DNA of 64,000 nucleotides, taken from Rothia mucilaginosa. GTDB taxonomy: Bacteria; Actinomycetota; Actinomycetes; Actinomycetales; Micrococcaceae. Location of the stretch: the NCBI RefSeq assembly GCF_019334805.1, contig NZ_CP079822.1, forward strand, positions 1,054,001-1,118,000. Direction: 5' to 3'. Below the pieces are notes generated by a model, which saw nothing but the letters and a program-made list of their open reading frames with translations, was not told the origin of the DNA and did no database searches. Made by a program: the position numbers and the translations under genes. Below, one piece after another: positions 33,089 through 47,418 of the stretch (position 1 is the stretch's first letter; every line of letters starts with the position of its first letter).

Positions 33089-33829
33089 TTAGGAAGCAGA
33101 AGCCGAAGCGGTAGCCAATGCAGAAGAAGAGGAAGAAGAATTACGCATACCGGTCAGCTTCCACGCGCCGTTCTCGTACACACCGTGCAGGGTACGCTTC
33201 ACCTCATCCTTACGTTCCGATTCAGAGGGGGCCTCCTGCACGCGTTCCTTGCTTGCAATGAACTCGCCGGGGTCCATGGTCAGGCGAATATCCCAGTTGT
33301 AGGTATCGCCATCACGCTCAGGCTGCGGGGTAAGCATGGTGATGGTGACAGCCGGGTCCTGCATCCAAATCTTGCCCTGCTGCAGACCAGCGCCCAGGGA
33401 ACGTGCGTCAGGTTCGAGGAAGTTCTTCAGCTCAGAGTTATCGAGTGCACATTCACGCAGCGGCTCGGTCTTGCCGGTGCGCATGTAGTACTCAATGGCT
33501 GCACCGAAGAACGCGATGGACTGGTACAGACCCTCGACGCTGTTCTCGTTAGCAACGGCGGGCTTCACGGGCACGGGAGCGTTCTTAGAGGGCTCGGTGC
33601 GGGTTCCGGGCTGGTAGTCAGCGGGCTTGGAGGTGTAGCCCTCCAGGACTGCCACGCCGGAGTAGTCGCTACGTACGCTCTTAGATGCCGACGCAGAAGC
33701 AGACGCGCTGCCGGATGCAGAAGCAGAGCCACTGGTTGCCTGGGGCTGCGCGCCACATGCGGCGAGGAGGGTTGCACCACCGGCGGCTACAACCATACCG
33801 AGTGCGGATCGGCGGGTTACGTTCTTCAT
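33089..33829 (-). CDS. DUF6318-like lipoprotein, copy 1
   Basis: The 246-residue protein opens MKNVTRRSALG, a Tat-like twin-arginine signal, followed by a hydrophobic stretch and the lipobox LAAC (Cys25). A Ser/Ala linker leads to a mature domain with VAVLEGYTSKPADYQPGTRT, ENSVEGLYQSIAFFGAAIEYYMRTGKTEPL and a C-terminal beta-rich part (GVYENGAWKLTGM). The layout resembles actinobacterial lipoproteins of the DUF6318 type; this family name is from memory and needs an HMM check. The last residues are a Ser/Ala tail. It shares about two thirds of its residues with its tandem neighbour. Function is unknown. Confidence 0.8.
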   Translation of the reverse strand: MKNVTRRSALGMVVAAGGATLLAACGAQPQATSGSASASGSASASASASKSVRSDYSGVAVLEGYTSKPADYQPGTRTEPSKNAPVPVKPAVANENSVEGLYQSIAFFGAAIEYYMRTGKTEPLRECALDNSELKNFLEPDARSLGAGLQQGKIWMQDPAVTITMLTPQPERDGDTYNWDIRLTMDPGEFIASKERVQEAPSESERKDEVKRTLHGVYENGAWKLTGMRNSSSSSSALATASASAS

Positions 33830-33854
33830 TGGGTTCTCTCTATCTACGGTGGTA

Positions 33855-33892
33855 GCGCCCGCCTCGTGGTTTTCAAGCCACGGGGCGGGCGC
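33855..33892 (-). terminator. terminator between tandem lipoprotein genes, duplicate
   Basis: Arms 33855-33869 and 33878-33892 repeat the core of the hairpin at 33008-33052, and the following 60 bases also match. It was therefore copied with the gene and separates the two lipoprotein transcripts. Confidence 0.85.
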
Positions 33893-33933
33893 CTTTTAGG
33901 TGTAGAAGCTATACACTTCTAGGCTGCTGAATT

Positions 33934-34656
33934 TTAGGAAGCAGAAGCCGATGCAGAAGCCTCAGATTCAGACTTCATGCCAGTCAGCTTCCATGCACCG
34001 TTCTCGTAAACACCGCGCAGGGTACGCTCGACGACGTTCTCACGACCGCTTTCAGGAACCTCCAGAACCTTATCCTTGGATGCCATGAATTCACCACGGG
34101 TCACGGTGAAGCGGGTATTCCAGGTGTATGCCTTACCGTCACGGGTGGGCTGTGCGGTAAGCATAGTGATGGTGACAGTCGGGTCGTGCATCCAAACTTC
34201 GCCCTTGACCAGCTTTTCGCCAAGAGTGCCGTCTTCCGGCTCGAGCATTGACTTGATTTCGCTCTTGTCCATAGCGCTTTCACGCAGCGGCTCGGTCTTG
34301 CCGGTGCGCATGTAGTATTCCATGGCTGCACCGAAGAAGGCGATGGACTGGTACAGGCCCTCTACGCTGTTCTCATTAGCGACGGCGGGCTTGGTCGGCA
34401 CGGGCACGTTCTTGGACGGCTCGGTGCGGGTTGCCAGCTGGTAGTCAGCAGGCTTGGAGGTGTAACCGTCCAGGACTGCAACGCCGGAGTAATCGGCGCG
34501 TGCGTTGTTAACTTCGGCGTTCGAGGTAGATGCGCTACCGGATGCAGATGCAGAGCCACTGGAAGCCTGGGACTGCGAACCGCATGCAGCCAGGAGGGTT
34601 GCGCCACCGGCAGCGGCAAACAGGCCGAGTGCGGATCGGCGGGTTACGTTCTTCAT
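33934..34656 (-). CDS. DUF6318-like lipoprotein, copy 2
   Basis: This is the paralogue of 33089-33829: 240 residues, the same MKNVTRRSALG Tat-like signal and LAAC lipobox, the same ENSVEGLYQSIAFFGAAMEYYMRTGKTEPL core and GVYENGAWKLTGM end. Differences cluster in the linker and in the middle (DKSEIKSMLEPEDGTLGEKLV against DNSELKNFLEPDARSLGAGLQ). The exported lipid-anchored location is inferred from the lipobox. The gene and its terminator form a repeat unit of roughly 845 bases. Neither copy shows enzyme motifs. Copy 2 is the first in transcription order, with TTTTTCTCTCT-like pyrimidines before its start. Confidence 0.8.
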   Translation of the reverse strand: MKNVTRRSALGLFAAAGGATLLAACGSQSQASSGSASASGSASTSNAEVNNARADYSGVAVLDGYTSKPADYQLATRTEPSKNVPVPTKPAVANENSVEGLYQSIAFFGAAMEYYMRTGKTEPLRESAMDKSEIKSMLEPEDGTLGEKLVKGEVWMHDPTVTITMLTAQPTRDGKAYTWNTRFTVTRGEFMASKDKVLEVPESGRENVVERTLRGVYENGAWKLTGMKSESEASASASAS

Positions 34657-35259: not shown

Positions 35260-35922
35260 CTACATGTCCACTTCGGCGAGGCCGGTGATTTCCTTGTCCT
35301 TAATGTGCGGGATGGTGGAGTTCCAGTTCATCCACGCCTTAACCTGGGCGGCTTCTTCGGGGTTGTTCATGTCTGGCCAGCGGTCGTTTTCCATCTTGAA
35401 TCGGGTCATTGCGAGGAGGTAGTAACCGTCATCGCCGGGGCTGAAATTCGTAATTGTCTTGCCTGATTTTGTTTTAAAAGTAACGCTGTCTGACTCGTCG
35501 CTATCAGAGGCCTGGCTGTATGAGACTGCGTCGATTGCGTTGAGCGGGTAGAAGACCGTATCTAGAAATGATTCGCCCCTTTCGATTCCTTCCGGCGAGA
35601 TTTCGGTGTAATCCTCAACGGGTCCGTAGAAGAAGCAGATAGCGATGCACATGGCGCAGAACGCTGCGATGTCGTAGAAAAGGTGGAATCCCATGTCGCC
35701 GAGTAGGTGCATTAGGAACATTCCGGTAGGAAATATGAGAGCTACAAAGCTGGCCAGAATGATGATGCGAAGCTTGCCTCGGATGATGTATATGTTTTCG
35801 GCGCGTAGCTTCTTGTCGTGGTGGCGGCTCATTTCATGGGCGATAACGGAGCGGCAGATTTTGTACATCAGCCCAAGGCATAGTACGCCCCATACGGCAG
35901 TCATGGTGTAGGTAATTATCAT
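35260..35922 (-). CDS. family A array protein 1 (membrane + PH-like domain)
   Basis: This is the first member of the 35-47 kb array, alone on the minus strand. It has 220 residues: an N-terminal membrane segment, a basic loop (SRHHDKKLRAENIYIIRGK), two more membrane segments, then a cytoplasmic beta-rich domain beginning TEISPEGIERGESF. It has YPLNAIDAVSYSQ, FKTKSGKTI, and the family block MTRFKMENDRWPDMNNP, and ends EITGLAEVDM. The order and motifs are those of the six full-length plus-strand paralogues, but this is the most diverged copy. I recognise no characterised family. The strand pattern resembles bacterial PH-like domains, which is inference. Confidence 0.75.
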   Translation of the reverse strand: MIITYTMTAVWGVLCLGLMYKICRSVIAHEMSRHHDKKLRAENIYIIRGKLRIIILASFVALIFPTGMFLMHLLGDMGFHLFYDIAAFCAMCIAICFFYGPVEDYTEISPEGIERGESFLDTVFYPLNAIDAVSYSQASDSDESDSVTFKTKSGKTITNFSPGDDGYYLLAMTRFKMENDRWPDMNNPEEAAQVKAWMNWNSTIPHIKDKEITGLAEVDM

Positions 35923-36002
35923 GGCCGTTCACTAACCTTTCTGTTTATCGGTGACCCGCAGCCTTCCGGCAACAGCGCGGAGGGTGCGGGTTCGTTCTCA
36001 GA

Positions 36003-36186
36003 GTAGCCGAGGAAATCGGGTGGTTAGGCACGGATTCGGGCTATCTGCGAAGTGGTTGCCGAGTCTTCACCCGAGCATTGCGTCGAGTTAACCTCCCGTC
36101 CAGATAGGGTGCGATAGGCTAAGAACGTGCCCGCCACCACTGGGGCGGGCGCGATTCACCAACCACCGCACAAGGACGTACATACT
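36003..36186 (+). promoter_or_regulatory. array promoter/leader block, copy 1
   Basis: This block contains AAATCGGGTGGTTA, GGTTGCCGAGTCTTCA, a GAGTTAAC element and GTGCGATAGGCTAAG (probable -10 TAGGCT, 36115-36120). A short GC hairpin (GCCCGCC/GGCGGGC) follows, then the leader ATTCACCAACCAC at 36154. The same order recurs at 37975-38154, and the first half again at 41317-41402. Confidence 0.7.
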
Positions 36187-36945
36187 ATGAACGCTGCTGA
36201 AACCGGAACCCTTTGGGGACTTATTGTCGCCCTGATACCGGGCTACCGTATTAAGCTCGGCAAACCCACCCTAAACAAGAGGCAGAAGAGGCCCATCCTG
36301 GCATATATCTTCTTCTGGTTTGTAACTATCCTCGGGTTTGTTGCATGGCCAGCATTCATAGCTTCTTATAGTCTTCTGACCGCTCCCGAATATGCGTCTC
36401 AGCGTACTGAAGCGATTGCCGCTCTTCTGATTGGTGTTTTAGGTATAGGCCTGCTGGGGGCCATCCCTCTAAACCACTGCTACGCCTTCTACCTCGAGCT
36501 GCGTGAGGATTGTGTGCGGTGGCGTAATTGGCGGTGGAAGGAACGCGCTTTCACCTACCCCTCGATTACGTTCGCCCATGTGGAAAACAACAGCAAGAAC
36601 GGCTTCTTGCGCATTGGTAGCACTGAGATGGGTAAGCGTACTTGCAGCTTCGACCCGTACCAGTTTGATGCAACCATCCTTATGGCGCAGGTGCTGTACC
36701 GTGACGATCACGGGCGCTGGGCTGAGGAGGACGGCATGGATGTGATGAGTGTAGTGGGGATGTATGGCTCCTCGCAGGACATTTATGCCCAGTTCTATGA
36801 CTTGTGTGAGACGAAGTACGTTGTTGGGCAGACGAAGAGTGAGCGTCAGAAGCGCCGCCGTAGGGTTGCCCGTAATGAGGCGCGTAGGCTGGAGCGTCAG
36901 CGGGCGCGTGAGGCAAAGAAGGCCCCGAATTCTCATGAGAAATGA
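36187..36945 (+). CDS. family B array protein 1 (membrane + WRNWR domain)
   Basis: The ATG at 36187 follows ACAAGGA and the shared leader. The 252-residue product has a short N-terminus (GYRIKLGKP), two membrane segments (about 40-60 and 75-100) and a cytoplasmic domain starting DCVRWRNWRWKERAFTYPSI. This continues LRIGSTEMGKRT and LYRDDHGRWAEEDG and ends in a highly basic tail (RQKRRRRVARNEARRLERQR). It is paralogous to 45269-45943. The LYRxxxGxW block corresponds in position to the RFRxExxRWPD block of family A, so A and B may be distant relatives. Function is unknown. Confidence 0.72.
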   Translation: MNAAETGTLWGLIVALIPGYRIKLGKPTLNKRQKRPILAYIFFWFVTILGFVAWPAFIASYSLLTAPEYASQRTEAIAALLIGVLGIGLLGAIPLNHCYAFYLELREDCVRWRNWRWKERAFTYPSITFAHVENNSKNGFLRIGSTEMGKRTCSFDPYQFDATILMAQVLYRDDHGRWAEEDGMDVMSVVGMYGSSQDIYAQFYDLCETKYVVGQTKSERQKRRRRVARNEARRLERQRAREAKKAPNSHEK

Positions 36946-36953
36946 GGTGAGTG

Positions 36954-37334
36954 ATGGAATCTCATAACAAATGGTCAGAAAGAATAACAATGCTTTTTCT
37001 GACGATGTGCGTTGGATATATCTTTTTTATTATTCCCATAAATCTACGTGATGACAGTGACGGTTTCACCGCTACCTGCACCGTAACTAAGGCGTACACG
37101 CAGGAGCGTCGCGGAACGGACCTGGGCGGCATGACTGACATTGGTTTGAAGGGGGTCTTTGAGACTGAGGAGTGTGGCACGCTCACGATGTACGAAGCAC
37201 CCGAGGGATGGAAGATTCCTGCATATGTTAAGACCGCGCAGCCCGGGAAAAAGTACCTGTTCCATGTGTCTAATCGTTCAAATAGGAAAGATAGAGATTT
37301 TGATATGACCCGCTTTGAAGAAATCAAAGAATAA
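36954..37334 (+). CDS. family C array protein 1 (single TM, RFEEIKE tail)
   Basis: The ATG at 36954 is preceded by GAGGTGA. The 126-residue product has one membrane segment (ITMLFLTMCVGYIFFIIPI) and an outside domain starting LRDDSDGFTATCTVTKAYT. This continues GVFETEECGTLTM, PGKKYLFHVSNRS and ends TRFEEIKE. Two Cys (in TATCTV and EECGT) are conserved in the family and probably form a disulphide. The gene starts eight bases after family B copy 1 and is in the same transcript. Three other copies and a 15-codon relic lie in the array. No known family is recognised. Confidence 0.75.
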   Translation: MESHNKWSERITMLFLTMCVGYIFFIIPINLRDDSDGFTATCTVTKAYTQERRGTDLGGMTDIGLKGVFETEECGTLTMYEAPEGWKIPAYVKTAQPGKKYLFHVSNRSNRKDRDFDMTRFEEIKE

Positions 37335-37403
37335 TGATTCCAAGAGGCAGATTGAATATAGATTCATCTGGCCTGCGACCACTTCTAAGGTGAGTGTTTC
37401 AAT

Positions 37404-37832
37404 ATGTTTATCATAGACTGCATAAAAGATTTTATAAAAGGATTCCTAGAGGAGTTCTTCGGTGATAGGCGCCCAAGCAGTATCATAATCATGACAAGCA
37501 TCGTAGCAATTATCATTTATGTCCTCGTACGCTTTCCATATGAATTACGAGATGACAGTGATGGTATCACTGCTACTTGCACCGTAACGAAGGCATACAC
37601 CAGGCCTCGAGGCGGCACGATTGGAGAGTTGAATGATAATGCTCCGGTGGGCGTCTTCGAAACAGAAGAATGCGGCACTCTCACGATGATTACCTCTCCG
37701 GAAGGTCGGAAGATTCCTGAGTATGTTGCAACAGCTCAGCCTGGCAAAAAATACCTATTCCATGTATTAAATTCGTCCACAAAAAAGGAACGGGATTTTG
37801 AGACAACCCGCTTTGAAGAAATCAAAGAATAA
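37404..37832 (+). CDS. family C array protein 2
   Basis: This 142-residue paralogue of 36954-37334 has a different N-terminus (MFIIDCIKDFIKGFLEEFFG) before the membrane segment (SIIIMTSIVAIIIYVLV). The shared domain follows: LRDDSDGITATCTVTKAYT, VGVFETEECGTLTM, AQPGKKYLFHV and TTRFEEIKE. The exported domain is more than 60% identical to copy 1, whereas the membrane part differs. AAGGTGAG precedes the ATG. It is AT-richer than the housekeeping genes. A perfect terminator follows and ends the first transcription unit of the array. Confidence 0.75.
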   Translation: MFIIDCIKDFIKGFLEEFFGDRRPSSIIIMTSIVAIIIYVLVRFPYELRDDSDGITATCTVTKAYTRPRGGTIGELNDNAPVGVFETEECGTLTMITSPEGRKIPEYVATAQPGKKYLFHVLNSSTKKERDFETTRFEEIKE

Positions 37833-37852
37833 CCAGCTCATGAGCTAAAAAT

Positions 37853-37899
37853 AGAGCCTCGGGTGGTGCGAGTCGAAGACTCGCACCACCCGAGGCTCT
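37853..37899 (+). terminator. perfect hairpin terminator in array
   Basis: Twenty-two-base arms (37853-37874, 37878-37899) pair perfectly around GAA. T-run is poor (CTCTATA), but the stem is very strong. Confidence 0.85.
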
Positions 37900-37974
37900 C
37901 TATACGGCATCTGCGGCCTATTTCGCTTTGTCCGCGTCTTCAACGATGCAGGGGCATGCTCCCCCAAAGCAGCT

Positions 37975-38154
37975 CAGAAAATCGGGTGGTTACGCACGGT
38001 TCTTGGCCCTCTGATGAATGGTTGCCGAGTCTTCATCTTAGCCTTGCACCCAGTTAACCTTCTGGTCAGATACCGTGCGATAGGCTAAGGGTGTGCCCGC
38101 CACCTCGCCGTAGCGAGCACGATTCACCAACCACCACACAAGGACGTACACACC
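37975..38154 (+). promoter_or_regulatory. array promoter/leader block, copy 2
   Basis: This repeats the elements of 36003-36186: AAATCGGGTGGTTA, GGTTGCCGAGTCTTCA, AGTTAACCTT, GTGCGATAGGCTAAG, TGCCCGCCACC, ATTCACCAACCACCACACAA and GGACGTACA before an ATG. That ATG opens only a 15-codon remnant. Confidence 0.75.
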
Positions 38155-38202
38155 ATGAGCACAGTTTTTGAGACGACCCGCTTTGAAGACATCACAGAAT
38201 AA
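38155..38202 (+). pseudogene. 15-codon relic of a family C gene
   Basis: The ATG placed by the array leader reads MSTVFETTRFEDITE and stops. The last 11 residues match the family C C-terminus (ETTRFEEIKE). The body of the gene is missing, so the start of one unit is joined to the last codons of another. This is a deletion scar of array recombination; it may still be translated as a leader peptide. Confidence 0.75.
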
Positions 38203-38234
38203 CAACCTGCAGCCCAGAAAGAAGGTGAAGAGTA

Positions 38235-38765
38235 GTGAAAAAGAACTCCCCGAGGAAAAAGAACGTTTCAAAGAAAAGGAACATCTCGAAGAAAAAGAGT
38301 TACCCAGAGGCAAATTACATTACCGAAACTGGGGCTATAAAGAAAACCAACAAAAAGAGATACACCAAGAAAAAGAAGAATAAAGTCGACTTCAAAGAAT
38401 ATCTTCGCGACATAGCAAAAGATGTATGGGATGCACGCGGCGCCATCATAACCATAGCAGTCATGCTAGGGTTCTTCGCGTCCATACATTTCATGACCAA
38501 CTACAACCCGGGCAATGAATCCGCTATCTGCACTGTCACCTCCGTCGAAATCATTGAGCACGAGGACCCCTATTGGACCTCCGGTGAATTCGAAACGGAA
38601 GAGTGCGGAATCATCACATCGAGCAAATCCCCTGATGGTATACCCATTCGCAAATACCTCCAGAACTTTGAGACGGGCAAGAAATACAGGGCGTACAAGT
38701 CCTTCGATACCCGTAACGATGAATACGACTTCAGCGTCCTCCGCTTTGAAGAGATCAAAGAATAA
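38235..38765 (+). CDS. family C array protein 3, Lys-rich N-terminus
   Basis: GTG 38235 follows GAAGGTGA. The 176-residue product starts with about 50 residues extremely rich in Lys (KKNSPRKKNVSKKRNISKKK, then KRYTKKKKNK). An acidic/aromatic segment and one membrane helix (about 68-87) come next, and then the exported domain. The two family Cys (SAICTV, EECGI), SGEFETEECGIIT, TGKKYRAY and LRFEEIKE are kept, but it is the most diverged intact copy. The basic cytoplasmic tail could bind RNA, DNA or phospholipid headgroups; this is speculation. Codon use is A-rich at the 5' end. Confidence 0.72.
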   Translation: MKKNSPRKKNVSKKRNISKKKSYPEANYITETGAIKKTNKKRYTKKKKNKVDFKEYLRDIAKDVWDARGAIITIAVMLGFFASIHFMTNYNPGNESAICTVTSVEIIEHEDPYWTSGEFETEECGIITSSKSPDGIPIRKYLQNFETGKKYRAYKSFDTRNDEYDFSVLRFEEIKE

Positions 38766-38792
38766 CCCCACCTCCGCAGAAAGGAATCCACC

Positions 38793-39695
38793 ATGGAAGA
38801 TATCGGCGACTTTATCATCGGCTTTTTTGAAGGGGCCATCGCGTCCTCACCAACACTGCGGCGAATATTCCTGTGGATTCTTTTTTCTATATCCATTCTT
38901 CTATCGTTTGTCCCCGTCATGACGGGCGAGTACGCGTGGAGCATCCTATCCATCTCCACGATGCTGTTTTCCGTCGTGATGATTGACGGCACGCGTGAGC
39001 ACGGTGTGCAGGATGCAAAGAACGGCGGCGCGTACCATTACTTTCTGCTGACGGTGGGCACGTTCTGCGTTGCCGCGATTGTTCTGCTCGCTGCTCTCTC
39101 CCTGGCGGGTGTCCCGCCGGTTGCCTCCACCCCGCAGGTGGACGGTATCAATTTCGCGCCCTGGTATGTGGTGGTGTCCGCGCTGGTTCTGCTGCTGTTC
39201 TTCTACAATGCCGCGCAGCCGAGCGAGGAGATCCCTAACCTGCACCGTATGGAGCGCATCAACCGGTATGTGCGCACCGTGGTGCTGGGTGTGAGCGCCC
39301 TGATGGTGCTCTTCTGCCTGGTTATTCCGGTGGTTTCGTTCGCTGCTGCCGGTTATGAGCCTGTGGGTGTTTCAGTGGTGCTGTGCCTGGTGCCGGTTTT
39401 CCTGATTTTTGTGCGCCGCACCCTGTTCAAGCTGTGGGCGGCGACCTTTGAGGAGGGCACTGCCGGGTATGGCGTGTTGCGTGGCTTCTGCGTAGCCCTG
39501 GTGGGTTTGGGCGGATGTTTGGCGGCGGCCCGTCTTGCCGTGGATGTTGTGCAGTCCGGTAGTGGGTTGTCGCTGGTGTACGTGGTGCCGGTGATCGCCT
39601 CGTACCTGCTGGTGAAGAGGTACCTGACCGTGGGTGTTGCTATCCCCGAGAAGGAAGATGAGGAGGACCCGGAGGCAGAACCTACAGCAAGCTAA
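38793..39695 (+). CDS. family D array protein 1 (polytopic)
   Basis: AGAAAGGA precedes the ATG. The 300-residue protein has about eight membrane segments, a loop with NFAPWYVV, and the cytoplasmic motif PSEEIPNLHRMERINR. It ends in an acidic tail (PEKEDEEDPEAE). It is paralogous to 45960-46832, with DEIPDLLRMEQMNRR and a similar acidic end (PEEEDEDSSS). It follows family C copy 3 by 27 bases and is probably cotranscribed. No transport or enzymatic motif is recognised. It may be the membrane partner of the smaller A, B and C proteins, but that is inference from location only. Confidence 0.75.
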   Translation: MEDIGDFIIGFFEGAIASSPTLRRIFLWILFSISILLSFVPVMTGEYAWSILSISTMLFSVVMIDGTREHGVQDAKNGGAYHYFLLTVGTFCVAAIVLLAALSLAGVPPVASTPQVDGINFAPWYVVVSALVLLLFFYNAAQPSEEIPNLHRMERINRYVRTVVLGVSALMVLFCLVIPVVSFAAAGYEPVGVSVVLCLVPVFLIFVRRTLFKLWAATFEEGTAGYGVLRGFCVALVGLGGCLAAARLAVDVVQSGSGLSLVYVVPVIASYLLVKRYLTVGVAIPEKEDEEDPEAEPTAS

Positions 39696-39761
39696 ACCGT
39701 GGAACCCCGCGAGTTGAGGAGCCTTGTGCGCCAAGCGCACGGTCTAGGACGATTCGCACAC

Positions 39762-39844
39762 CGGGGTATCCTTGGGGGAAGGTACGCCACCTGCGGGTGG
39801 TGCGCTTCCGGATATTCACCAACCACACGAAACGAGAACCCGTC
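39762..39844 (+). promoter_or_regulatory. array promoter/leader type 2, copy 1
   Basis: GGTATCCTTGGGG (probable -10 TATCCT, 39767-39772) is followed by GTACGCCACCTGCGGGTGGT, a short CACC/GGTG hairpin, CGCTTCCGGATATTCACCAA and CCACACGAAACGAGAA before the ATG. The same block occurs at 41472-41553. A shorter version (TATCCT plus leader) lies at 42985-43067. Confidence 0.68.
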
Positions 39845-40504
39845 ATGCGCATTTTCCTGATTATTATCTGGGGCATTATGGCCTTCATCTCGGTAACCGG
39901 GACGCTCTATATCATTATCAACTATGAGATTCAGCGATGGAAGGATATGGAGCGCCGCCGCCAAGGCGCGTATATCCGACGGGTTAATCAGGCCGAGGCT
40001 CTTCTAACAATATTTACCCCTGGGTTCCCGTGCCTTTTTCTTTACCTTCATCTTGTTGACGAGGGTTCTGCGGGTATCTTCTATGAATCAATTGCATTAC
40101 TTGGGTCAATTGGGCTCATGATGTATGCCTGGTACGTACACGTTGCCTACGTGAAGATTTCCCCTGAAGGTATTGAGCAGCGTATGTGGTCAGCACGCAC
40201 GACCGTCTATCCCTTCAACGCTATTGACGGCATTGAATACTACGAAGCAACCTCTACAGATGACCAGGATCTTGTGTCTTTCTACAGTAAATCCGGAAAA
40301 CTCATTGCCGCCTTCTGCCCGATTATTCACAAGAATTATCGTCTAATGGCGATTGTGCGGTTCAGGATTGAGAACGAGCGTTGGCCTGATATGGATAATC
40401 CGAGTGATATTGCTCGGGTGGATGCTCTAGATAGTGGCCCTGATACAGTCCCGTACTTCAGGGGAAAAGAGAAAGTCACCGGCCTCGCCGACGTTGATAT
40501 GTAG
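39845..40504 (+). CDS. family A array protein 2
   Basis: This 219-residue protein starts MRIFLIIIWG after the shared leader (ACGAAACGAGAA as ribosome-binding region). It has membrane segment 1 (about 3-25), a basic cytoplasmic loop (QRWKDMERRRQGAYIRRVNQ), membrane segments 2 and 3 (about 54-70 and 82-105) and the PH-like domain from KISPEGIEQRMWSARTTVYP. The block AIVRFRIENERWPDMDNP and the end KVTGLADVDM follow. It is nearly identical to 44585-45244 except in residues about 65-90, where FLYLHLVDEGSAGIFYES stands against YLFAHLIDEGSPGAFYEL. The variable stretch should face outside by the positive-inside rule. Function is unknown. Confidence 0.78.
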   Translation: MRIFLIIIWGIMAFISVTGTLYIIINYEIQRWKDMERRRQGAYIRRVNQAEALLTIFTPGFPCLFLYLHLVDEGSAGIFYESIALLGSIGLMMYAWYVHVAYVKISPEGIEQRMWSARTTVYPFNAIDGIEYYEATSTDDQDLVSFYSKSGKLIAAFCPIIHKNYRLMAIVRFRIENERWPDMDNPSDIARVDALDSGPDTVPYFRGKEKVTGLADVDM

Positions 40505-40581
40505 CACCGCGCGACAGCCGATACGATAGCCCTAAACACCGAACTCTATTCACCAACCACACGAAACGAGAAACCACCACC

Positions 40582-41241
40582 ATGCGCACTTTCCTGATTA
40601 TCTTCTGGGGTGTCTTCGCTGTATTCACTACAGTTGCGACGTTTTACGTCATCATCAATTACGAGGTGCAACGTTGGAAAGATAAAAAGCGGCGGCGCGA
40701 GGGTATTTATATTCGACGAGTTAATCAGGCTGAAGCTCTCTTGATGATATTTACTCCCGCCTTTCCGTGCCTTATGTTTGTAGGTCACATATACGGTCCT
40801 AAATCATTAGATATAGCGACTGAAATAGCGGCCTTATTACTATCGGCTATGTTCATTTCTTTCTTGCGTTATGTGCATGTCGCTTATGTGAAGCTTTCTC
40901 CCGAAGGTATCGAGCAGCGTGTCTGGTCAGCTAACCCAACGGTCTACCCGATAGGTGCGATTGATAGCGTTACCTATTACGAGACTGTGGATGTTGAAGA
41001 CCAGGATATGGTGGGCTTCTATACCCGGTCAGGTAAACAGATTGCTGCCTTCGGTCCGACCACCCACAATAACTATCGAATCTTGGCGATTGTGCGGTTT
41101 AGGATTGAGAACGAGCGTTGGCCTGATATGGATAATCCGGGTGATGTGGCGCAGGTGGACGCGCTTGATAAGAGGGGTATGACAATTTCTTATTTCAGGG
41201 ATTTGGAGAAGGTCTCCGGTCTTGCCGACGTCGACATGTAG
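40582..41241 (+). CDS. family A array protein 3
   Basis: This 219-residue paralogue, directly downstream of copy 2 (77 bases), starts MRTFLIIFWG after the ATTCACCAACCAC leader. It shares the basic loop (RWKDKKRRREGIYIRRVNQ), HVAYVKLSPEGIEQRVWSAN, RFRIENERWPDMDNPGD and the end KVSGLADVDM. Its N-terminal third is closest to 43068-43730. The central segment (MFVGHIYGPKSLDIATEI) is unlike copies 2 and 7. This mosaic similarity points to exchange of segments between copies. A terminator follows. Confidence 0.78.
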   Translation: MRTFLIIFWGVFAVFTTVATFYVIINYEVQRWKDKKRRREGIYIRRVNQAEALLMIFTPAFPCLMFVGHIYGPKSLDIATEIAALLLSAMFISFLRYVHVAYVKLSPEGIEQRVWSANPTVYPIGAIDSVTYYETVDVEDQDMVGFYTRSGKQIAAFGPTTHNNYRILAIVRFRIENERWPDMDNPGDVAQVDALDKRGMTISYFRDLEKVSGLADVDM

Positions 41242-41251
41242 CACCGCATAG

Positions 41252-41298
41252 AGAAAGCCCCTGGGCTGAGAGATTACCTCTCAGCCGAGGGGCTTTCT
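41252..41298 (+). terminator. terminator after family A copy 3
   Basis: Twenty-one-base arms (41252-41272, 41278-41298) with minor mismatches end in CTTTCTGC. It separates the A2-A3 unit from the next. Confidence 0.85.
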
Positions 41299-41316
41299 GC
41301 GTACACCAGGGTCAGC

Positions 41317-41553
41317 CAAGAAACTCGGGCGGATACGGGTCCAATCCCACCCGCCGGTGAATGGTCGCCCAGTCTTCACCCAAGCCTTGCACCGAGTTAA
41401 CTTTTTAGCCACCTAACCCATAGACCATCAAAGTGCTCGACATTTCCACTTGTCAGAGCTTTCAAGCACATAGAGTATCCTTGGGAAATGTACGCCACCT
41501 GCAAGTGGTGCGCTTCCGGATATTCACCAACCACATACGAAATGAGGACTTTC
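41317..41553 (+). promoter_or_regulatory. composite array promoter/leader block, copy 3
   Basis: The first part (41317-41402: ACTCGGGCGGATACGG, GTCTTCACCCAAGCCTTGCA, GAGTTAAC) matches the type 1 blocks. The second part (41472-41553: GTATCCTTGGG, GTACGCCACCTGC, GTGGTGCGCTTCCGGATATT, CACCAACCAC) matches the type 2 leader at 39762. It looks like a junction of the two. Confidence 0.68.
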
Positions 41554-42024
41554 ATGTCTGAAAACACCCCGCAGCCGGCTGCACCGCAGCAGCCGCAGTT
41601 CACCCAGCAAGCACCCGCCGTACAGCCTGCATACGGCGCACCCGTCGAGGCTCCGAAGAAGAAGTGGGCGGCAGTAACCGCGCTGGTCTTGGGCATTATT
41701 TCCGCCCTGACCGGCATTTTTGTGATCGGTTCGTTCCTGACCATCCCGACCATTATTTTCGCGGTGATTGCTCTGATCATGGTCAAGAATGGCACCGGCA
41801 AGGGTAAGGGCATGGCGATTACCGCTCTTGCGCTGGTTCTGGTGGCGTACATCGCTACGTTTGCTTTCTTCCAGATTCGTGCCGCGAACCTTGAGAAGTC
41901 TAACCGAGAGGCCCGTGAGGTTATCCAGAAGTGCGAGAACCACGAGCCCGGCTACTACATCATTGAGAAGGATGGTAAGCGTTACTGCAACGCTGGCGGC
42001 TGGGTCTACGAGATGGATAAGTAA
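41554..42024 (+). CDS. DUF4190-like membrane protein
   Basis: The ATG at 41554 follows GAGGAC. The 156-residue protein has a Pro/Gln-rich N-terminus (about residues 1-35) and two membrane segments with the DUF4190 pattern (ALVLGIISALTGIF, IIFAVIALIMVKNG, KGKGMAITALALVL). A short exported tail carries two Cys (QKCENHEPGYY and RYCNAGGW). DUF4190 proteins are common in actinobacteria and have no known activity. It is the only array gene belonging to a recognised family. It uses the same leader as family A genes, so it is probably co-regulated with them. Confidence 0.78.
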   Translation: MSENTPQPAAPQQPQFTQQAPAVQPAYGAPVEAPKKKWAAVTALVLGIISALTGIFVIGSFLTIPTIIFAVIALIMVKNGTGKGKGMAITALALVLVAYIATFAFFQIRAANLEKSNREAREVIQKCENHEPGYYIIEKDGKRYCNAGGWVYEMDK

Positions 42025-42126
42025 ACCGGCTTATTTGGTTCCATGATTAGCCGTCACTGATGGAGGGGCGTTCGTTCACGCGGCAGTCGCCGTGCCTGCG
42101 AGTGCCCCTCAACCGTATCTCCCGTG

Positions 42127-42237
42127 GGTGCTTCAGCATCTGACGGCGAGTATGCCCCGGAACACCTGCAGCGCATCCTTGATGCGCACTCCACTACCAC
42201 CACCGACTCCAACCCGACCGAAGGAGCGAATAGCTAA
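42127..42237 (+). pseudogene. relic of a family B C-terminus
   Basis: In one frame this reads ASDGEYAPEHLQRILDAHST and continues to TAA at 42235-42237. It matches the end of family B copy 2 (EAGEYRQIPEHLQRILDRAA). No start or body is present. The ribosome-binding site of the next family A gene lies inside this remnant. It marks the place of a lost B gene directly upstream of an A gene. Confidence 0.65.
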
Positions 42238-42238
42238 A

Positions 42239-42898
42239 ATGATGTCTCAAGAATCTGCTATTACCTTTTGGGGCGTATGCTCCATCATCACAACTATTTT
42301 CACGATTCTCACCCTTGCCGCTTACATCATCAATCGACGCCGCGACGAGAAGAAGAAGCGTGAAGGCATCTACATTAGTCGTCTGCGAGCGCTACTGGTG
42401 TACGTTATTGTCTTTATCCCGGGCTTCCCGATTATCCGCTATTTTTTGTCGCTCAATGGCCCCGAGACTAACCCCTATGCAGAGGGTATTTACATCTTCA
42501 TGACTGCTTTCCTCTTGTTCTACCTGTGGCACGTCAACGCCACGTACATGAAGATTTCTTCTGAGGGTATTAATATGCACACCCCCGTTCGCGGGTCGAG
42601 GATCTGCCCCATCGGCGCGATTGATAGCGTTGTTTATAGCGAGTCCAAGGATGAAGATACCCCAAGCCGGATGTGGTTTCTCACTAAGTCGCGTGCACGT
42701 ATTAACCCGTTGAACCCGAATTATGATGAGTACTATCTCTTGGTCATTACTCGGTTCAGGATTGAGTATGGTCGCTGGCCTGACCTGGATAATCCGGCTG
42801 ACGTGGATAAGGTGAACCAGCTGGATAACCGTTATGAAGTCATTCCGTATTTCATGAATAATCAAGAGATTTCGGGTCTTGCTGACGTCGATATGTAG
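42239..42898 (+). CDS. family A array protein 4
   Basis: This 219-residue diverged member starts MMSQESAITFWG after GAAGGAGC; the second ATG, 3 bases on, is an alternative start. The plan is unchanged: membrane segment 1, basic loop (NRRRDEKKKREGIYISRL), two membrane segments around a loop (LSLNGPETNPYAEG), then YMKISSEGINMHTPVRG. The blocks CPIGAIDSVVYSES and ITRFRIEYGRWPDLDNP and the end EISGLADVDM follow. It lacks the common array leader and relies on sequence derived from a family B relic. Function is unknown. Confidence 0.76.
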   Translation: MMSQESAITFWGVCSIITTIFTILTLAAYIINRRRDEKKKREGIYISRLRALLVYVIVFIPGFPIIRYFLSLNGPETNPYAEGIYIFMTAFLLFYLWHVNATYMKISSEGINMHTPVRGSRICPIGAIDSVVYSESKDEDTPSRMWFLTKSRARINPLNPNYDEYYLLVITRFRIEYGRWPDLDNPADVDKVNQLDNRYEVIPYFMNNQEISGLADVDM

Positions 42899-42915
42899 CC
42901 CCCGGTTTGCGGGCT

Positions 42916-42965
42916 GAAAGCTCCCGGGGATGCGCGGCTCACCCCCGCGCTACCCCGGGGCTTTC
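42916..42965 (+). terminator. GC-rich hairpin after family A copy 4
   Basis: GAAAGC-CCCGGGG and CCCCGGGGCTTTC arms, with an inner GCGCGG/CGCGC pairing, form a long stem. No T-run is present, so termination is likely but not certain. Confidence 0.6.
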
Positions 42966-43067
42966 GGGGCTCATGCGCTGGTATCCTCAGCACGTAGGCA
43001 CCGCCGCCTAATTTGGGTGGGGTGCATACCCTTCCTATTCACCAACCACACGAAACGAGAACCCGCC

Positions 43068-43730
43068 ATGCGCACTTTCCTGATTATCTTCTGGGGTATC
43101 TTTGCTACGTTCACAACAGTTGCGACGTTTTACGTCATCATCAATTACGAGGTGCAGCGCTGGAAAGATAAGCAACGGCTACGTGAGGGTATTTATATCC
43201 GACGGGTTACGCGGCTCAAAGCTCTCATGACGATATTTACCCCCGTTTTTCCGTGCCTTATGTTTGCAGGTCATATATTTTTTGACCCTGAATCAGCAAG
43301 GATAACGATTGACATAACGGCCTTGTTAGTATCAGTACCATTTGCCGCATACTTGCGCTATGTGCATGTCGCCTACGTGAAGACCTCCGCCGAGGGCATC
43401 GAGCAACGTATCTGGTTCTCCAACCCGACCCGCTACCCCTTCAACGCGATCAACCGCGTCGTGTTCTACAAGGCATCGAATTATGAAGACGATGACATGG
43501 TGGGGTTCTACGCCAAGTCAGGCACCCAGATTGCCCTGTTTAGCCCGATGCCTCATAAAAATTACCGACTTCTGGCGATTGTACGGTTCAGGATTGAGAA
43601 CGAACGTTGGCCTGACATGGACAACCCGGATGATGTGGCGCAGGTGGACCGTTTGGATTGTGCCGGGAAGACGATGCGCTACTTTGAAAATTTGGGGAAG
43701 GTTACTGGCCTTGCCGACGTCTACATGTAA
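43068..43730 (+). CDS. family A array protein 5
   Basis: This 220-residue member starts MRTFLIIFWG after the full leader (CACCAACCACACGAAACGAG). The first 45 residues are nearly those of copy 3. The central segment (MFAGHIFFDPESARITIDI) is its own. The C-terminal domain has YVKTSAEGIEQRIWFSNPTR, YPFNAINRVVFYKA, IVRFRIENERWPDMDNP and ends KVTGLADVYM. The terminal VYM instead of VDM is shared with copy 7. Possible promoter TATCCT lies 80 bases upstream. The mosaic pattern again suggests recombination among copies. Confidence 0.78.
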   Translation: MRTFLIIFWGIFATFTTVATFYVIINYEVQRWKDKQRLREGIYIRRVTRLKALMTIFTPVFPCLMFAGHIFFDPESARITIDITALLVSVPFAAYLRYVHVAYVKTSAEGIEQRIWFSNPTRYPFNAINRVVFYKASNYEDDDMVGFYAKSGTQIALFSPMPHKNYRLLAIVRFRIENERWPDMDNPDDVAQVDRLDCAGKTMRYFENLGKVTGLADVYM

Positions 43731-43820
43731 CCCTCCCAATAAGCGCCGGCTACCCCCTGCATCCGAAGAGCCGCAACCGGCACGAACACCACCAACACCG
43801 CGAAAGAGGAGAACGGCATC

Positions 43821-44510
43821 ATGCACACCTTTTTCCTTCTACTCTGGGGCACCTGCACCCTCGCATCAATCATCGGCGCCATCATTGTCGTTATCCTGCA
43901 TAATAGGCACCTGCGCCAGGACATGCAGCTACGCGACGAAGGCATCTACATTACGCGCGTGCCCCGCCGTGAAGCACTCATAAGCCTCCTCACGCCCACA
44001 CTCCCGGCAGGTTTCTTCGCGTTCTACCTCTACACGCAGGCAGAGCTCGGCATCCTCTTCAACCTCCTGATGTTCATCCTGCTGCTGGTCTTCCTCTACC
44101 ACCTTCTGCACGTTCACCTGGTGTACACGAAAATCACGCCCGACACTGTGGAACAGAAACTCTCACCGTTCGCTACCGTGACCCCCTACCCGATTAGGGC
44201 TATCGACCAGGTTTTCTACTTCCAGGGTAAGACGGAGGCGGAGGATTGGGATGGGGAAGCGACCGACAGCGCCACCTTCTACACCAAGAAAGGCAAGCAA
44301 ATCGCCAAGCTAGACCCCGTTGGAAGGAACCACCGGCTGCTGGCAATCGTACGGTTCAGGCTCGAGTTCGACCGCTGGCCCGATATGCGGAACCCGCAAG
44401 ATCTGGCGTGGGTTGATACATGGGATAACCTCGAGTGGACCCGACCCCTGTTCAGGAAGCTGTACAGAAGACGCAACAAAATCACCGGCCTAGCGGATAT
44501 CAAGATGTAG
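43821..44510 (+). CDS. family A array protein 6
   Basis: This 229-residue member is more diverged and GC-richer than its neighbours, which suggests an older copy. It starts MHTFFLLLWG after AAAGAGGAG. The loop is basic (HNRHLRQDMQLRDEGIYITR). The membrane pair differs (AGFFAFYLYTQAELGILFNL). The PH-like part has TKITPDTVEQKLSP, YPIRAIDQVFYFQG and FYTKKGKQIAKLDP, then AIVRFRLEFDRWPDMRNP and a basic insertion (LYRRRNK) before the end ITGLADIKM. The all-family C-terminal signature is therefore GLA(D/E)(V/I)xM. Confidence 0.76.
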   Translation: MHTFFLLLWGTCTLASIIGAIIVVILHNRHLRQDMQLRDEGIYITRVPRREALISLLTPTLPAGFFAFYLYTQAELGILFNLLMFILLLVFLYHLLHVHLVYTKITPDTVEQKLSPFATVTPYPIRAIDQVFYFQGKTEAEDWDGEATDSATFYTKKGKQIAKLDPVGRNHRLLAIVRFRLEFDRWPDMRNPQDLAWVDTWDNLEWTRPLFRKLYRRRNKITGLADIKM

Positions 44511-44584
44511 CGCCGCACGGCAGCCGATACGATAGACCCAAACGCCGAACCCTATTCACCAACCACACGAAACGAGAACCAACC

Positions 44585-45244
44585 ATGCGTATTTTCCTCA
44601 TCATCATATGGGGCGTTATGGCCTTCATCTCGGTAACCGGGACGCTCTACATCATCATCAATTACGAGATTCAGCGCTGGAAGGATATGGAGCGCCGCCG
44701 CCAAGGCGCGTACATCCGGCGAGTCAATCAGGCAGAGGCTCTCCTGACAATATTTACTCCTGGATTTCCGTGCCTCTATCTCTTTGCTCATCTTATAGAC
44801 GAGGGGTCTCCAGGTGCCTTTTATGAACTCCTTGGGATATTTCTGTCAATCGGATTCATGATGTATGCCTGGTATGTGCATGTTGCCTATGTGAAGATCT
44901 CCCCTGAAGGTATTGAGCAGCGCATGTGGTCAGCACGCACGACCGTCTATCCCTTCAACGCTATTGACGGCATTGAATACTATGAGGCAACCTCTACAGA
45001 CGACCAGGATCTTGTGTCTTTCTACAGTAAATCCGGAAAACTAATTGCCGCCTTCTGCCCGATTATTCACAAGAATTATCGTCTAATGGCGATTGTGCGG
45101 TTCAGGATTGATAATGACCGCTGGCCTGATATGAATAATCCGAGTGATATTGCTCGGGTGGATGCTCTAGATAGTGGCCCTGATACAGTCCCGTACTTCA
45201 GGGAAAAAGAGAAAGTCACCGGCCTCGCCGACGTCTACATGTAA
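44585..45244 (+). CDS. family A array protein 7
   Basis: This 219-residue protein is almost identical to copy 2 (39845-40504), also at DNA level and in its leader. Differences concentrate in residues about 65-90 (YLFAHLIDEGSPGAFYEL) and a few at the C-terminus (DNDRWPDMNNP, VYM). The two genes are 4.7 kb apart, so the pair shows either recent duplication with rapid change of one segment or ongoing gene conversion that spares it. The next gene (family B copy 2) starts 24 bases downstream. Confidence 0.78.
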   Translation: MRIFLIIIWGVMAFISVTGTLYIIINYEIQRWKDMERRRQGAYIRRVNQAEALLTIFTPGFPCLYLFAHLIDEGSPGAFYELLGIFLSIGFMMYAWYVHVAYVKISPEGIEQRMWSARTTVYPFNAIDGIEYYEATSTDDQDLVSFYSKSGKLIAAFCPIIHKNYRLMAIVRFRIDNDRWPDMNNPSDIARVDALDSGPDTVPYFREKEKVTGLADVYM

Positions 45245-45268
45245 CCAACCACCACACTAGGACACCCC

Positions 45269-45943
45269 ATGCTCAGGAAATTCCTTGCCGAAACCGTCAC
45301 CAACGGCTCCATAGGACTCAACCGCCCCAAAGGCTATATTCCTCTGGGACAGCGGCAGAAAAAGCCGCTGCTGGCTGTGTTAATTTTGGACGCTTGTACA
45401 GTGGTTGTTTGTCTTCTGTGTCCTCTACTTTTCAGAGCAGAGAGCCTTGTTGACTACATTCCAGCCTACATATTTACAAACATAGTTGGAATGCATTTCT
45501 GGTTTATGTCCATCCATGTTCACTCTTTCTACATCCAGCAGAATGCAACCTCCGTGAAATGGCGGAACTGGCGATTCAAAACCCGCGAGTTCGACTACAG
45601 CAGCATCACCAAAATACACATGCAGGTCAACGGCAAAGGCGGACACCTACTCATCAGCAGTAGCCAGATGGGACGCTACCGTCTGGGTTTCAGCCCCGTC
45701 TTCTTTGACGCAACCTACATCTACCACATGATTCTCTTCCGCGAGCGCTACGGCGTTTGGCCACCCAAGTACATCCCTGAGCTCTTCGTAGAGTTCGGTG
45801 ATTACGAGGACATGGACGCTCTGATTAAGGTCATCTGTTATGCCCGCACGTATGAGATTGGTTCCCCCGAGGCTGGGGAGTACCGACAGATCCCGGAACA
45901 CCTGCAGCGCATCCTCGACCGCGCCGCGGCAGAGTCCAAATAG
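45269..45943 (+). CDS. family B array protein 2
   Basis: This 224-residue paralogue of 36187-36945 has an N-terminal LNRPKGYIPLGQRQKKPLL, two membrane segments, and the domain ATSVKWRNWRFKTREFDYSS. It continues LLISSSQMGRYRLGF and ILFRERYGVWPPKYIPEL, and ends EHLQRILDRAAAESK. It lacks the long basic tail of copy 1. A partial leader (ACCAACCACCACACTAGGA) precedes the ATG. It lies between family A copy 7 and family D copy 2 and is probably cotranscribed with both. Its last 20 residues match the relic at 42127-42237. Confidence 0.74.
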   Translation: MLRKFLAETVTNGSIGLNRPKGYIPLGQRQKKPLLAVLILDACTVVVCLLCPLLFRAESLVDYIPAYIFTNIVGMHFWFMSIHVHSFYIQQNATSVKWRNWRFKTREFDYSSITKIHMQVNGKGGHLLISSSQMGRYRLGFSPVFFDATYIYHMILFRERYGVWPPKYIPELFVEFGDYEDMDALIKVICYARTYEIGSPEAGEYRQIPEHLQRILDRAAAESK

Positions 45944-45959
45944 TTGAAAGGGAAATAGC

Positions 45960-46832
45960 ATGAACGCTATCTCTGAAACCTTCAGAATCCTATGGCTAAT
46001 CTTCCTGTGGTTCTGCTTTAGCTTCATAGCTCTTGCATCTCTAGTGATGGCCGTTATTGGGGTATGGCCTTGGGGTGCGCTGTTCTTCGTTTTAAGCCCT
46101 CTGAATCTTGCTTACATAGATATGATTAACGCTGAAAATATTGGCTATAAAGCGACCGGAGGCCTCTTCCACCGCTTCTTTATTTTCGTTTACTCCATCA
46201 ACGCGGTGGGCTTGATTGTTCTGACGGTTCTGACGGCTTTCGGTGTACTCCAGGGGGACCCGGCTCCGTGGACCCCTGAGACGAACTTTGCTTCCTGGTA
46301 CATGGTTGGCGGGCTAATCATCGTCGCCTTCCTCATCTACCGCATCGAGCCTAATGATGAGATTCCTGACCTGCTGCGCATGGAGCAGATGAATAGGCGC
46401 TCAACCCGTGTGGGCGTTGTGTCGGCGGCTATTTTCACGGTTCTGTGCCTCGTGGTTCCTCTGACCAGTTTCATGACTGCAGGCTATGATCCGGTGGCTC
46501 TGGCGGTTGCGCTTTTCCTGGCCCCTGGGTTCCTGCGTGTTGTGCGTGAGGGCCTCTTCTACCTGCAGGGCACCCGCTTTGAGGAGGGATCTGAGGGGTA
46601 CCGTACCCTGCGTGCCGTGTGTATTGGCGTGGCTGGTTTGGCTGGGTGTATTGCGCTCGGGTATGTGGGCTATTCGCTGGTTCGTCTGGAGTTGCTGCCT
46701 GCGCTGTTCTTTGCTGCCTCGGTAGCGATGAATGGGTGGTCGGTGAAGAAGTACATCACCGTGGGTATCACCATTCCCGAGGAGGAAGACGAGGATTCCT
46801 CTTCCAATGCCGCTGTTCAGGAGGCGGAGTAA
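45960..46832 (+). CDS. family D array protein 2 (polytopic)
   Basis: GAAAGGGAAATAGC precedes the ATG. This 290-residue, about eight-segment membrane protein is paralogous to 38793-39695: NFASWYMVGG, NDEIPDLLRMEQMNRR, TRFEEGSEGYRTLRAVC and the acidic end EEEDEDSSSNAA. The best conserved parts are the loop before segment 4, the DEIPxLxRME motif and the FEEG(T/S) loop. It follows family B copy 2 by 16 bases, whereas copy 1 follows a family C gene, so families are reshuffled between units. Function is unknown. Confidence 0.75.
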   Translation: MNAISETFRILWLIFLWFCFSFIALASLVMAVIGVWPWGALFFVLSPLNLAYIDMINAENIGYKATGGLFHRFFIFVYSINAVGLIVLTVLTAFGVLQGDPAPWTPETNFASWYMVGGLIIVAFLIYRIEPNDEIPDLLRMEQMNRRSTRVGVVSAAIFTVLCLVVPLTSFMTAGYDPVALAVALFLAPGFLRVVREGLFYLQGTRFEEGSEGYRTLRAVCIGVAGLAGCIALGYVGYSLVRLELLPALFFAASVAMNGWSVKKYITVGITIPEEEDEDSSSNAAVQEAE

Positions 46833-46835
46833 AAC

Positions 46836-47000
46836 ATGCTAGATACCATCTTTAGTATCTTCTGGGGAATTATTTTGGTGCTGTCCATTGCTTCTATCCC
46901 CTACATTATTATTAGGTACGAGATTAATCGACGCCAAGATAAGAAAAAGGAAGCACAGGGAATTTTTAATAAGATTGATTTAAAGAAGTGGGACATTTAA
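46836..47000 (+). CDS. truncated family A protein (54 aa)
   Basis: This small gene encodes MLDTIFSIFWGIILVLSIAS and then YIIIRYEINRRQDKKKEAQG before ending KWDI. It corresponds to membrane segment 1 and the basic loop of family A; the other membrane segments and the PH-like domain are missing. A GGAGG site overlaps the end of the preceding gene. Either it is a degraded copy or a deliberately short form, for example a dominant-negative partner. The reading frame is clean, so expression is possible. Confidence 0.68.
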   Translation: MLDTIFSIFWGIILVLSIASIPYIIIRYEINRRQDKKKEAQGIFNKIDLKKWDI

Positions 47001-47041
47001 TGAGATTACCTTTTTCCACTAAGTTATAAATAGGGGAGCCG

Positions 47042-47418
47042 ATGGAAATTAATTATGCTCGCCGCCAAATAATAGGGTTGACCCTTTTGATAATGCTTGC
47101 TGTATACATGTTTTTGTTGTTCCTCAACATTTACGTGATGACAGTGATGGCATTACCGCAACCTGTACCGTGACTAAGGCATATTCGGTACCGCGCGGAG
47201 GAACAGTAAGCGGCATGAATGATATTAGACCCAAAGGTCTTTTTGAGACGGAAGAGTGCGGCACGCTCACAATGATTACTCCTCCGGAAGGTCGCAAGAT
47301 TCCCGAGTATGTTGAGAGCGTCAAGCCTGGCAAAAAATACCTATTCCATGTGTCGAATCGTTCAACTAATAAAGAGCGGGATTTTACTACGACCCGCTTT
47401 GAAGAAATCAAAGAATAA
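47042..47418 (+). pseudogene. frameshifted family C gene (copy 4)
   Basis: An ATG at 47042 after AGGGGAG opens a membrane segment (GLTLLIMLAVYMFLLFLNI). Near 47126-47133 the frame shifts by one base relative to the family domain, which continues LRDDSDGITATCTVTKAYSV in the other frame and runs to RFEEIKE at 47418. The original frame stops soon after. A second start (GTG 47170) could give only the domain without a membrane anchor. It could be a true pseudogene, a sequencing error, or phase variation; no long homopolymer is present at the junction. Confidence 0.75.

Follow-up and report, generated by a model that had tools for sequence, protein, structure and literature searches.

What might a dense array of uncharacterised membrane-protein genes do in a common oral bacterium when no toxin is seen beside it? 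The question is raised by a stretch of 64,000 nucleotides (the window), bases 1,054,001-1,118,000 of the 2.28-Mb single-contig genome of Rothia mucilaginosa that we label G000. At positions 35,260-47,418 (~12 kb) the window holds 14 intact genes of four families, A (seven genes), B (two), C (three) and D (two), together with one DUF4190-like gene (E) and four relics, and direct repeats span the array. The count of intact genes agrees exactly with that of an earlier reading made from these letters alone (the sequence-only reading). We propose, with considerable confidence, that the predicted function of the array is that of a library of orphan immunity genes against the RHS toxins of competing Rothia, because genes homologous to A/B, C and D are located directly behind toxin tips in other Rothia. 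This would provide a likely function for protein families that are uncharacterised in a common oral bacterium, and it points to an actinobacterial arms race mirroring that of the Bacillota.

RHS toxins and the genes behind them

The genes behind RHS toxins were recorded for all RHS open reading frames (ORFs) of at least 240 residues, the next gene being a same-strand ORF that starts anywhere from 80 bases upstream to 300 bases downstream of the end of the RHS ORF; where several ORFs qualified, an ORF carrying a family label took precedence, and the same rule was applied to an upstream control. The 36 RHS ORFs are followed by C (17), A/B (three), D (one), a barstar-like gene (two), DUF6318 (one), another RHS frame (one), other genes (nine) or no gene (two), although 16 of them come from loci that were fetched because they hold C, and C follows in 10 of those 16. 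A fairer set is provided by 13 of the 24 places that match DUF6531, the rest being at contig edges, unfetched, short fragments, in other genera, or in the C-selected loci; it includes L028, L034 and L049, which were first fetched via A or WXG100 matches and are DUF6531 matches as well. In this set of 16 RHS ORFs the next gene is C in five cases, A/B in three, D in one, barstar-like in two, DUF6318 in one and another gene in four. Of these last four, one represents just the front portion of a broken toxin and another terminates in a string of N; neither has a usable 3' end, and 14 usable ORFs remain. Thus, a homologue of A-D lies directly behind 9/16, or 9/14 usable, of the RHS ORFs selected by DUF6531, and the upstream control yields A/B in 1/16 and WXG100 in 5/16.

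The tips, taken as the last 190 residues of the 36 RHS ORFs, were clustered. Groups of 11, three and two tips all precede C (8/11 and 2/3 in the two larger groups being from C-selected loci), two tips precede barstar-like genes, and five tips of another type precede other genes; the remainder consists of two uninformative pairs and nine singletons, among which are the tips that precede A/B and D. The two tips before barstar-like genes match the ribonuclease family PF00545 above its cut-off and are followed by tandem paralogue arrays, while DUF6318 lipoproteins lie behind a lipase-like RHS tip in the Rothia genome G010. The RHS toxins of this genus with recognisable enzymatic tips therefore also have arrays of paralogues behind them. 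The term barstar-like is only a label for the genes behind ribonuclease tips, and the one such protein that was scanned has no match to the Pfam Barstar family. At two loci of G010 (L090:7568-14466 and L091:8539-15948) the ribonuclease-tipped toxins are accompanied by long tandem barstar-like arrays, with short tip-like pieces before some of the genes.

Tips that precede A/B, C and D are rich in glycine and contain a hydrophobic stretch, and in the four that were scanned (L049, L028, L050, L094) no Pfam family scores above its cut-off. Since hydrophobic stretches are present ahead of the ribonuclease tips too, they may serve delivery. In the proposed mechanism, RHS toxins would be secreted by the type VII-like system of other, armed Rothia, and the tip of the rival's toxin would act at the membrane or the cell envelope. 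A/B, C and D would be immunity proteins of the membrane, each family corresponding to one class of RHS C-terminal tips, and a protein of this kind, seated in the membrane, would bind the tip or its receptor and block the action. A broad and shuffling immunity set could then allow an unarmed strain to survive among armed ones. Further small membrane proteins are encoded in RHS loci at L049:16562-16816, L050:9922-10185 and L095:6443-6766, and these are possibly more immunity families.

Armed and unarmed forms of the locus

The same site was found in two sister genomes. In R. mucilaginosa 141_RMUC (G034), the single locus returned by a scan of genome contigs with A, flanks that are 92.6% and 95.3% identical in DNA to those of the window enclose another set of genes, namely six A, one B, one C and one D. 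In G009 the flanks are 93.8% and 96.6% identical, and a type VII-like secretion cluster interrupts the array between the orthologues of D1 (38793..39695; 88% identity) and E, where the window carries A2 (39845..40504) and A3 (40582..41241). The cluster comprises a coiled-coil-like lipoprotein, a weak periplasmic-binding-like protein, an EssC-like ATPase (FtsK/SpoIIIE and FHA domains) of 1,462 residues, a protein kinase, a WXG100-like protein (25.4 bits, just below the Pfam cut-off of 27.3) and an RHS/DUF6531 toxin of 2,036 residues. A D gene that starts 17 bp beyond the end of the toxin shares 70% identity with D2 of the window (45960..46832), the relative of E (41554..42024) adjoins the WXG100 gene, and the counterpart of A1 (35260..35922, minus strand) is 59% identical.

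Two side observations concern this cluster. Beside the toxin, an RHS fragment of G009 (L038:13226-15727), which appears from its sequence to be a scar of toxin-immunity recombination, has a frame that opens with a sequence resembling the leader and with the initial residues of family A, and a C gene follows. A protein kinase with the motifs HxDxKPEN and DFG accompanies the EssC-like FHA ATPase in both G009 (L038:10475-12499) and G031 (L097:14907-16898); in the Bacillota, its place is taken by the pseudokinase EssB/YukC.

Neither G000 nor G034 has a match to the G009 toxin or to DUF6531. For the EssC-like ATPase linked to this toxin, neither G000 nor G034 showed an orthologue; in G000 the best match reaches 181 bits over ~245 residues, against 1,395 to 3,295 bits for the full-length EssC matches of nine genomes. 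One WXG100 gene is located elsewhere in G000, along with an unlinked FtsK/SpoIIIE-like ATPase, and there is room for another type VII-like system in this genome; the WXG100 neighbourhoods of G001 (L051) and G000 (L052) have no link to A-D. No toxin adjoins the window's own copies of A-D, as the sequence-only reading had stated, and in a tblastn search of the window with the tips the sole significant matches came from one fused RHS-C frame, which matches the C genes of the window. Because related gene sets are present in other Rothia (G010, G028, G031, G033, G002, G018 and G016), parsimony, applied without a tree, favours the view that G000 and G034 lost the toxin cluster over its gain in G009.

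The N-terminal 300 residues of the G009 toxin match 1,010 database clusters (E<=1e-10), and the names among the 120 matches listed are R. mucilaginosa or Rothia sp., one of them on a 2.37-Mb contig. The tips of these 120 fall into 17 clusters at 60% identity (five with looser linkage), and 40 of them match the D-linked tip; 21 listed proteins with 100% identity over the first 300 residues bear tips of four types. Toxins of the G009 type are polymorphic toxins of one species complex.

Family A matches 1,094 database protein clusters (E<=0.01), the organism names among the 120 listed being R. mucilaginosa or uncultured Rothia, and family C matches 303. The sequence-only reading had suggested profile searches and a comparison of copy number; in 59 related genomes from 24 genera, C was found in 16 genomes and A in six, each in the one genus Rothia, to which the window genome belongs (for A, the deeper iterated profile was not rerun in other genera). 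The number of copies varies, and genomes that possess C carry between 1 and 15. Chance clustering of families otherwise scattered singly does not describe C, which forms tight runs in a number of Rothia genomes (six copies within 4 kb in G005, for example), although there are A-superfamily genes located apart from toxins.

C and DUF6531 occur together in nine of the 35 Rothia genomes, C only in seven, DUF6531 only in two and neither in 17 (one-sided Fisher p 0.005), and the corresponding counts for DUF6531 and full-length EssC are 8, 3, 1 and 23 (p 6e-5), both p values being optimistic because the genomes are related and not independent. A stop codon interrupts three of the nine full-length EssC genes. 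The genomes with C and without DUF6531 are G000, G005, G008, G012, G029, G030 and G034, of which G005 also has no full EssC. We put forward tentatively, as a reading a little short of even in its chances, that R. mucilaginosa lineages can lose the type VII-RHS weapon and yet keep and shuffle, at the vacated locus and under a leader whose exact copies are confined to the array, a mixed library of at least three apparently unrelated families of membrane immunity proteins, a dedicated, recombining island of defence without attack directed at RHS toxins that act on the envelope and come from the same species complex. Armed and unarmed forms of one locus between near-identical flanks make the value of orphan immunity testable in natural strains.

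Composition and diversification of the array

With the exception of A1, all features of the array are on the plus strand. A 13-base leader, ATTCACCAACCAC, occurs as seven exact matches in the window (0.06 expected); these are also the only exact matches in the whole 2.28-Mb genome, all of them on one strand and within the array, and a reversed control pattern yields none. The first copy (36154..36166) precedes B1 (36187..36945), which is followed by C1 (36951..37334) and C2 (37404..37832). The second (38122..38134) precedes a C relic (38155..38202) reduced to the start and the final codons of the gene, after which C3 (38235..38765), with a long N-terminus, and D1 are located. The third (39814..39826) and fourth (40548..40560) lie ahead of A2 and A3, and the fifth (41522..41534) ahead of E. 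The 3' end alone of a B gene (42127..42238) and A4 (42239..42898) come next, then the sixth copy (43037..43049), A5 (43068..43730) and A6 (43821..44510), and finally the seventh (44554..44566) with A7 (44585..45244), B2 (45269..45943), D2, an A relic (46836..47000) that encodes a 54-residue N-terminal piece, and a C relic (47043..47418) whose reading frame is broken. The at least four decayed copies reported earlier thus correspond to four located relics. A 24-base extension of the leader precedes A2, A3, A5 and A7. The leader would drive joint regulation of the array genes; a scan for promoter consensus gave 11 sites, with no excess over the 11.4 expected, and terminator-like sites are commoner than expected (24 versus 12.1).

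All seven A proteins end in GLA[DE][VI]xM, and RFEEIKE ends the three intact C proteins and the broken copy, so that both C-terminal signatures named in the sequence-only reading hold. The two copies of B are 30% identical and those of D, polytopic membrane proteins, 36%. Alignment of A and B with hhalign gives an E value of 3e-4 and a probability of 39%, and the iterated A profile recovers B. Judged by sequence, A and B probably form one superfamily; the four families first distinguished are all present, and they may therefore be three. Three distant A-superfamily genes are found elsewhere in G000 (L035:8581-11847, corresponding to G000:C1 about 1,829,000-1,832,350), with no RHS within the 20 kb fetched. 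The predicted structure of A3 (mean pLDDT, predicted local distance difference test, 89) has a long N-terminal helix, a helical hairpin and a PH-like domain, while that of C2 (mean pLDDT 77) has one transmembrane helix and an OB-fold-like domain, in keeping with the plan of family C, a single transmembrane segment and a small domain. Fold searches with the A and C models gave weak matches, none strong enough to name a family, and a sequence search of the PDB returned nothing convincing. Ten array proteins (two of the seven A, both B, the three C, both D and E) were scanned against Pfam, NCBIfam and PADLOC, where matches were at most below cut-off and no family model fits A-D. The DUF4190-like gene of the earlier reading is present, and E encodes a small membrane protein, but the match is weak (22 bits, E value 1.4e-4, against a Pfam cut-off of 35; 23.6 bits in the genome search).

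The A genes of the two genomes, G000 and G034, read as mosaics. Taken together, eight A genes from the window and from G034 have an incompatibility score of 0.197, compared with 0.251 +/- 0.004 after shuffling (0/500 shuffles as low), and the identity between A3 and one G034 copy, taken per 60 bases, rises from 38-58% in the first half to 68-95% in the second. Across the 120 A proteins listed, variability is highest at residues 11-20, 71-90, 131-140 and 191-210, a pattern that fits recognition surfaces without being proof of them.

Beside the array, two DUF6318 lipoproteins are encoded on the minus strand (33089..33829 and 33934..34656). This family has 38 matches in G000, many in tandem (in the window at 33089-34656, and at G000:C1:270231-279240, 139301-147082 and 2027004-2032156), and is the one behind the lipase-tipped RHS toxin of G010. 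It may constitute a second, lipoprotein-type immunity repertoire, as suggested by this one toxin neighbour. G010 also carries the array leader once (G010:C1:124176-124188), ~270 bp ahead of a DUF6318 match.

Alternative explanations and known systems

Several points weigh against an immunity library, the optimism of the co-occurrence p values among them. Two usable toxins selected by DUF6531 precede membrane proteins outside A-D, and D adjoins a toxin only once. The toxin-linked A/B genes are distant from those of the window (22-26% identity), seven toxin-linked C copies are only 12-33% identical to C2, and neither the C copies with 60-66% identity to C2 nor the close copies of A were seen behind a toxin; the link of window-type A and C to toxins is thus one of family, not of close orthologue. 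A-superfamily genes at L030-L033 and L035-L037 have no RHS within the 20 kb fetched. No toxin remnants were found in the window, RHS fragments still lie beside C in G012 and G029, two of the seven genomes listed as having C without DUF6531, and for four A genes of the window taken alone the recombination test is negative (425/500 shuffles as low or lower). That A-D proteins would neutralise RHS toxins is something we infer.

Three other explanations must be set against the same evidence. It is unlikely that A-D are accessory or chaperone-like secretion parts, or toxin anchors, left after the loss of the system. They do surround the secretion locus in G009 and lie near it in G010, and the DUF4190-like gene adjoins WXG100, but the family of the next gene tracks the type of tip, pairs of tip and C occur with no machinery gene in the 11-20 kb fetched (L142, L149, L154), the copy number of C is variable in a manner unlike that of machinery genes, and the run of C in G005 stands in a genome with neither DUF6531 nor full EssC. 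An array for resistance to bacteriocins or antimicrobial peptides, independent of RHS toxins, appears very improbable to us. Immunity to bacteriocins is typically conferred by small membrane proteins, and the A-superfamily genes without RHS nearby count in its favour; against it stands the direct adjacency of C, A/B and D to RHS tips, in an analysis that included no search for peptide bacteriocins themselves.

A phage-exclusion or prophage-derived membrane defence array is hardly credible. Decaying arrays of membrane proteins can be exclusion genes, and the lack of a fitting PADLOC model for the scanned proteins would make an undescribed system possible. However, pattern scans of viral contigs, which reach close relatives only, gave candidates (A 15, C 80, D 103, B 278) of which none was confirmed, a PHROGs search with four proteins found no hits for those of A, B and C and weak ones for D (best E value 0.007), and the linkage observed is to RHS toxins instead. 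Where the sequence-only reading had named immunity, exclusion or self-recognition, immunity is the role supported by the toxin-adjacent homologues and by the toxin and secretion genes at the locus in G009, and phage exclusion is not favoured. It had also spoken of a candidate undescribed system. This applies to the families and to their setting without toxin or machinery, an orphan multi-family membrane array in an oral actinobacterium, both of which appear new; the kind is ordinary, since orphan immunity arrays are already described. A literature search, mostly of open-access listings, returned no report of membrane immunity arrays in Rothia or of a link between type VII secretion and RHS in this genus.

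The comparisons that follow draw on excerpts of the cited reports. In R. mucilaginosa DY-18 a rhs-CT/rhsI arrangement, with an immunity gene after the Rhs gene, has already been reported (PMC3667864), and RdnE/RdnI of R. dentocariosa is a tested effector/immunity pair in which RdnE is a DNA nuclease (PMC12483513); the excerpts of both accounts contain neither membrane immunity arrays nor a type VII link. Orphan immunity arrays of the type VI secretion system in Vibrio cholerae (PMC5361080) and in gut Bacteroidales (PMC12247911) resemble the Rothia array in that orphan or displaced immunity genes are retained without a toxin, while the secretion system and the families differ. The same differences apply to Tse5, a pore-forming Rhs toxin (PMC10684867) that offers an example of an Rhs tip forming pores. 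The pair TslA/TilA, a lipase toxin with a lipoprotein immunity protein (PMC10730906), parallels the DUF6318 lipoprotein behind the lipase-tipped RHS toxin of G010, the Rothia case being one neighbour.

LrhA of Listeria is a toxin with DUF6531 and RHS parts, and it is accompanied by a WXG100 gene at EssC (PMC10327511). Its candidate immunity protein LrhI has one transmembrane segment and an outer domain, with orphan copies in other essC types (PMC10327511), and family C shares this plan at the level of the described layout. Unlike the Rothia array, this system belongs to the Bacillota, and the orphan lrhI copies are described singly. A parallel in gene organization is provided by TspA/TsaI (DUF443) and EsaD/EsaG of Staphylococcus aureus, in which strings of non-identical paralogous immunity genes oppose toxins of the type VII secretion system and the esaG genes undergo recombination (PMC9484751, PMC7456083). 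The Rothia array is likewise a run of paralogous putative immunity genes. The S. aureus genome holds the toxin and the secretion system, with one family per array, whereas the Rothia array mixes several families, no toxin or linked EssC was found with it, and its ten scanned proteins have no match to DUF443, the TsaI family (hmmscan, E<=1). By analogy with these systems, A/B, C and D of Rothia would most likely block RHS tips in the way that TsaI blocks TspA and that has been proposed for LrhI.

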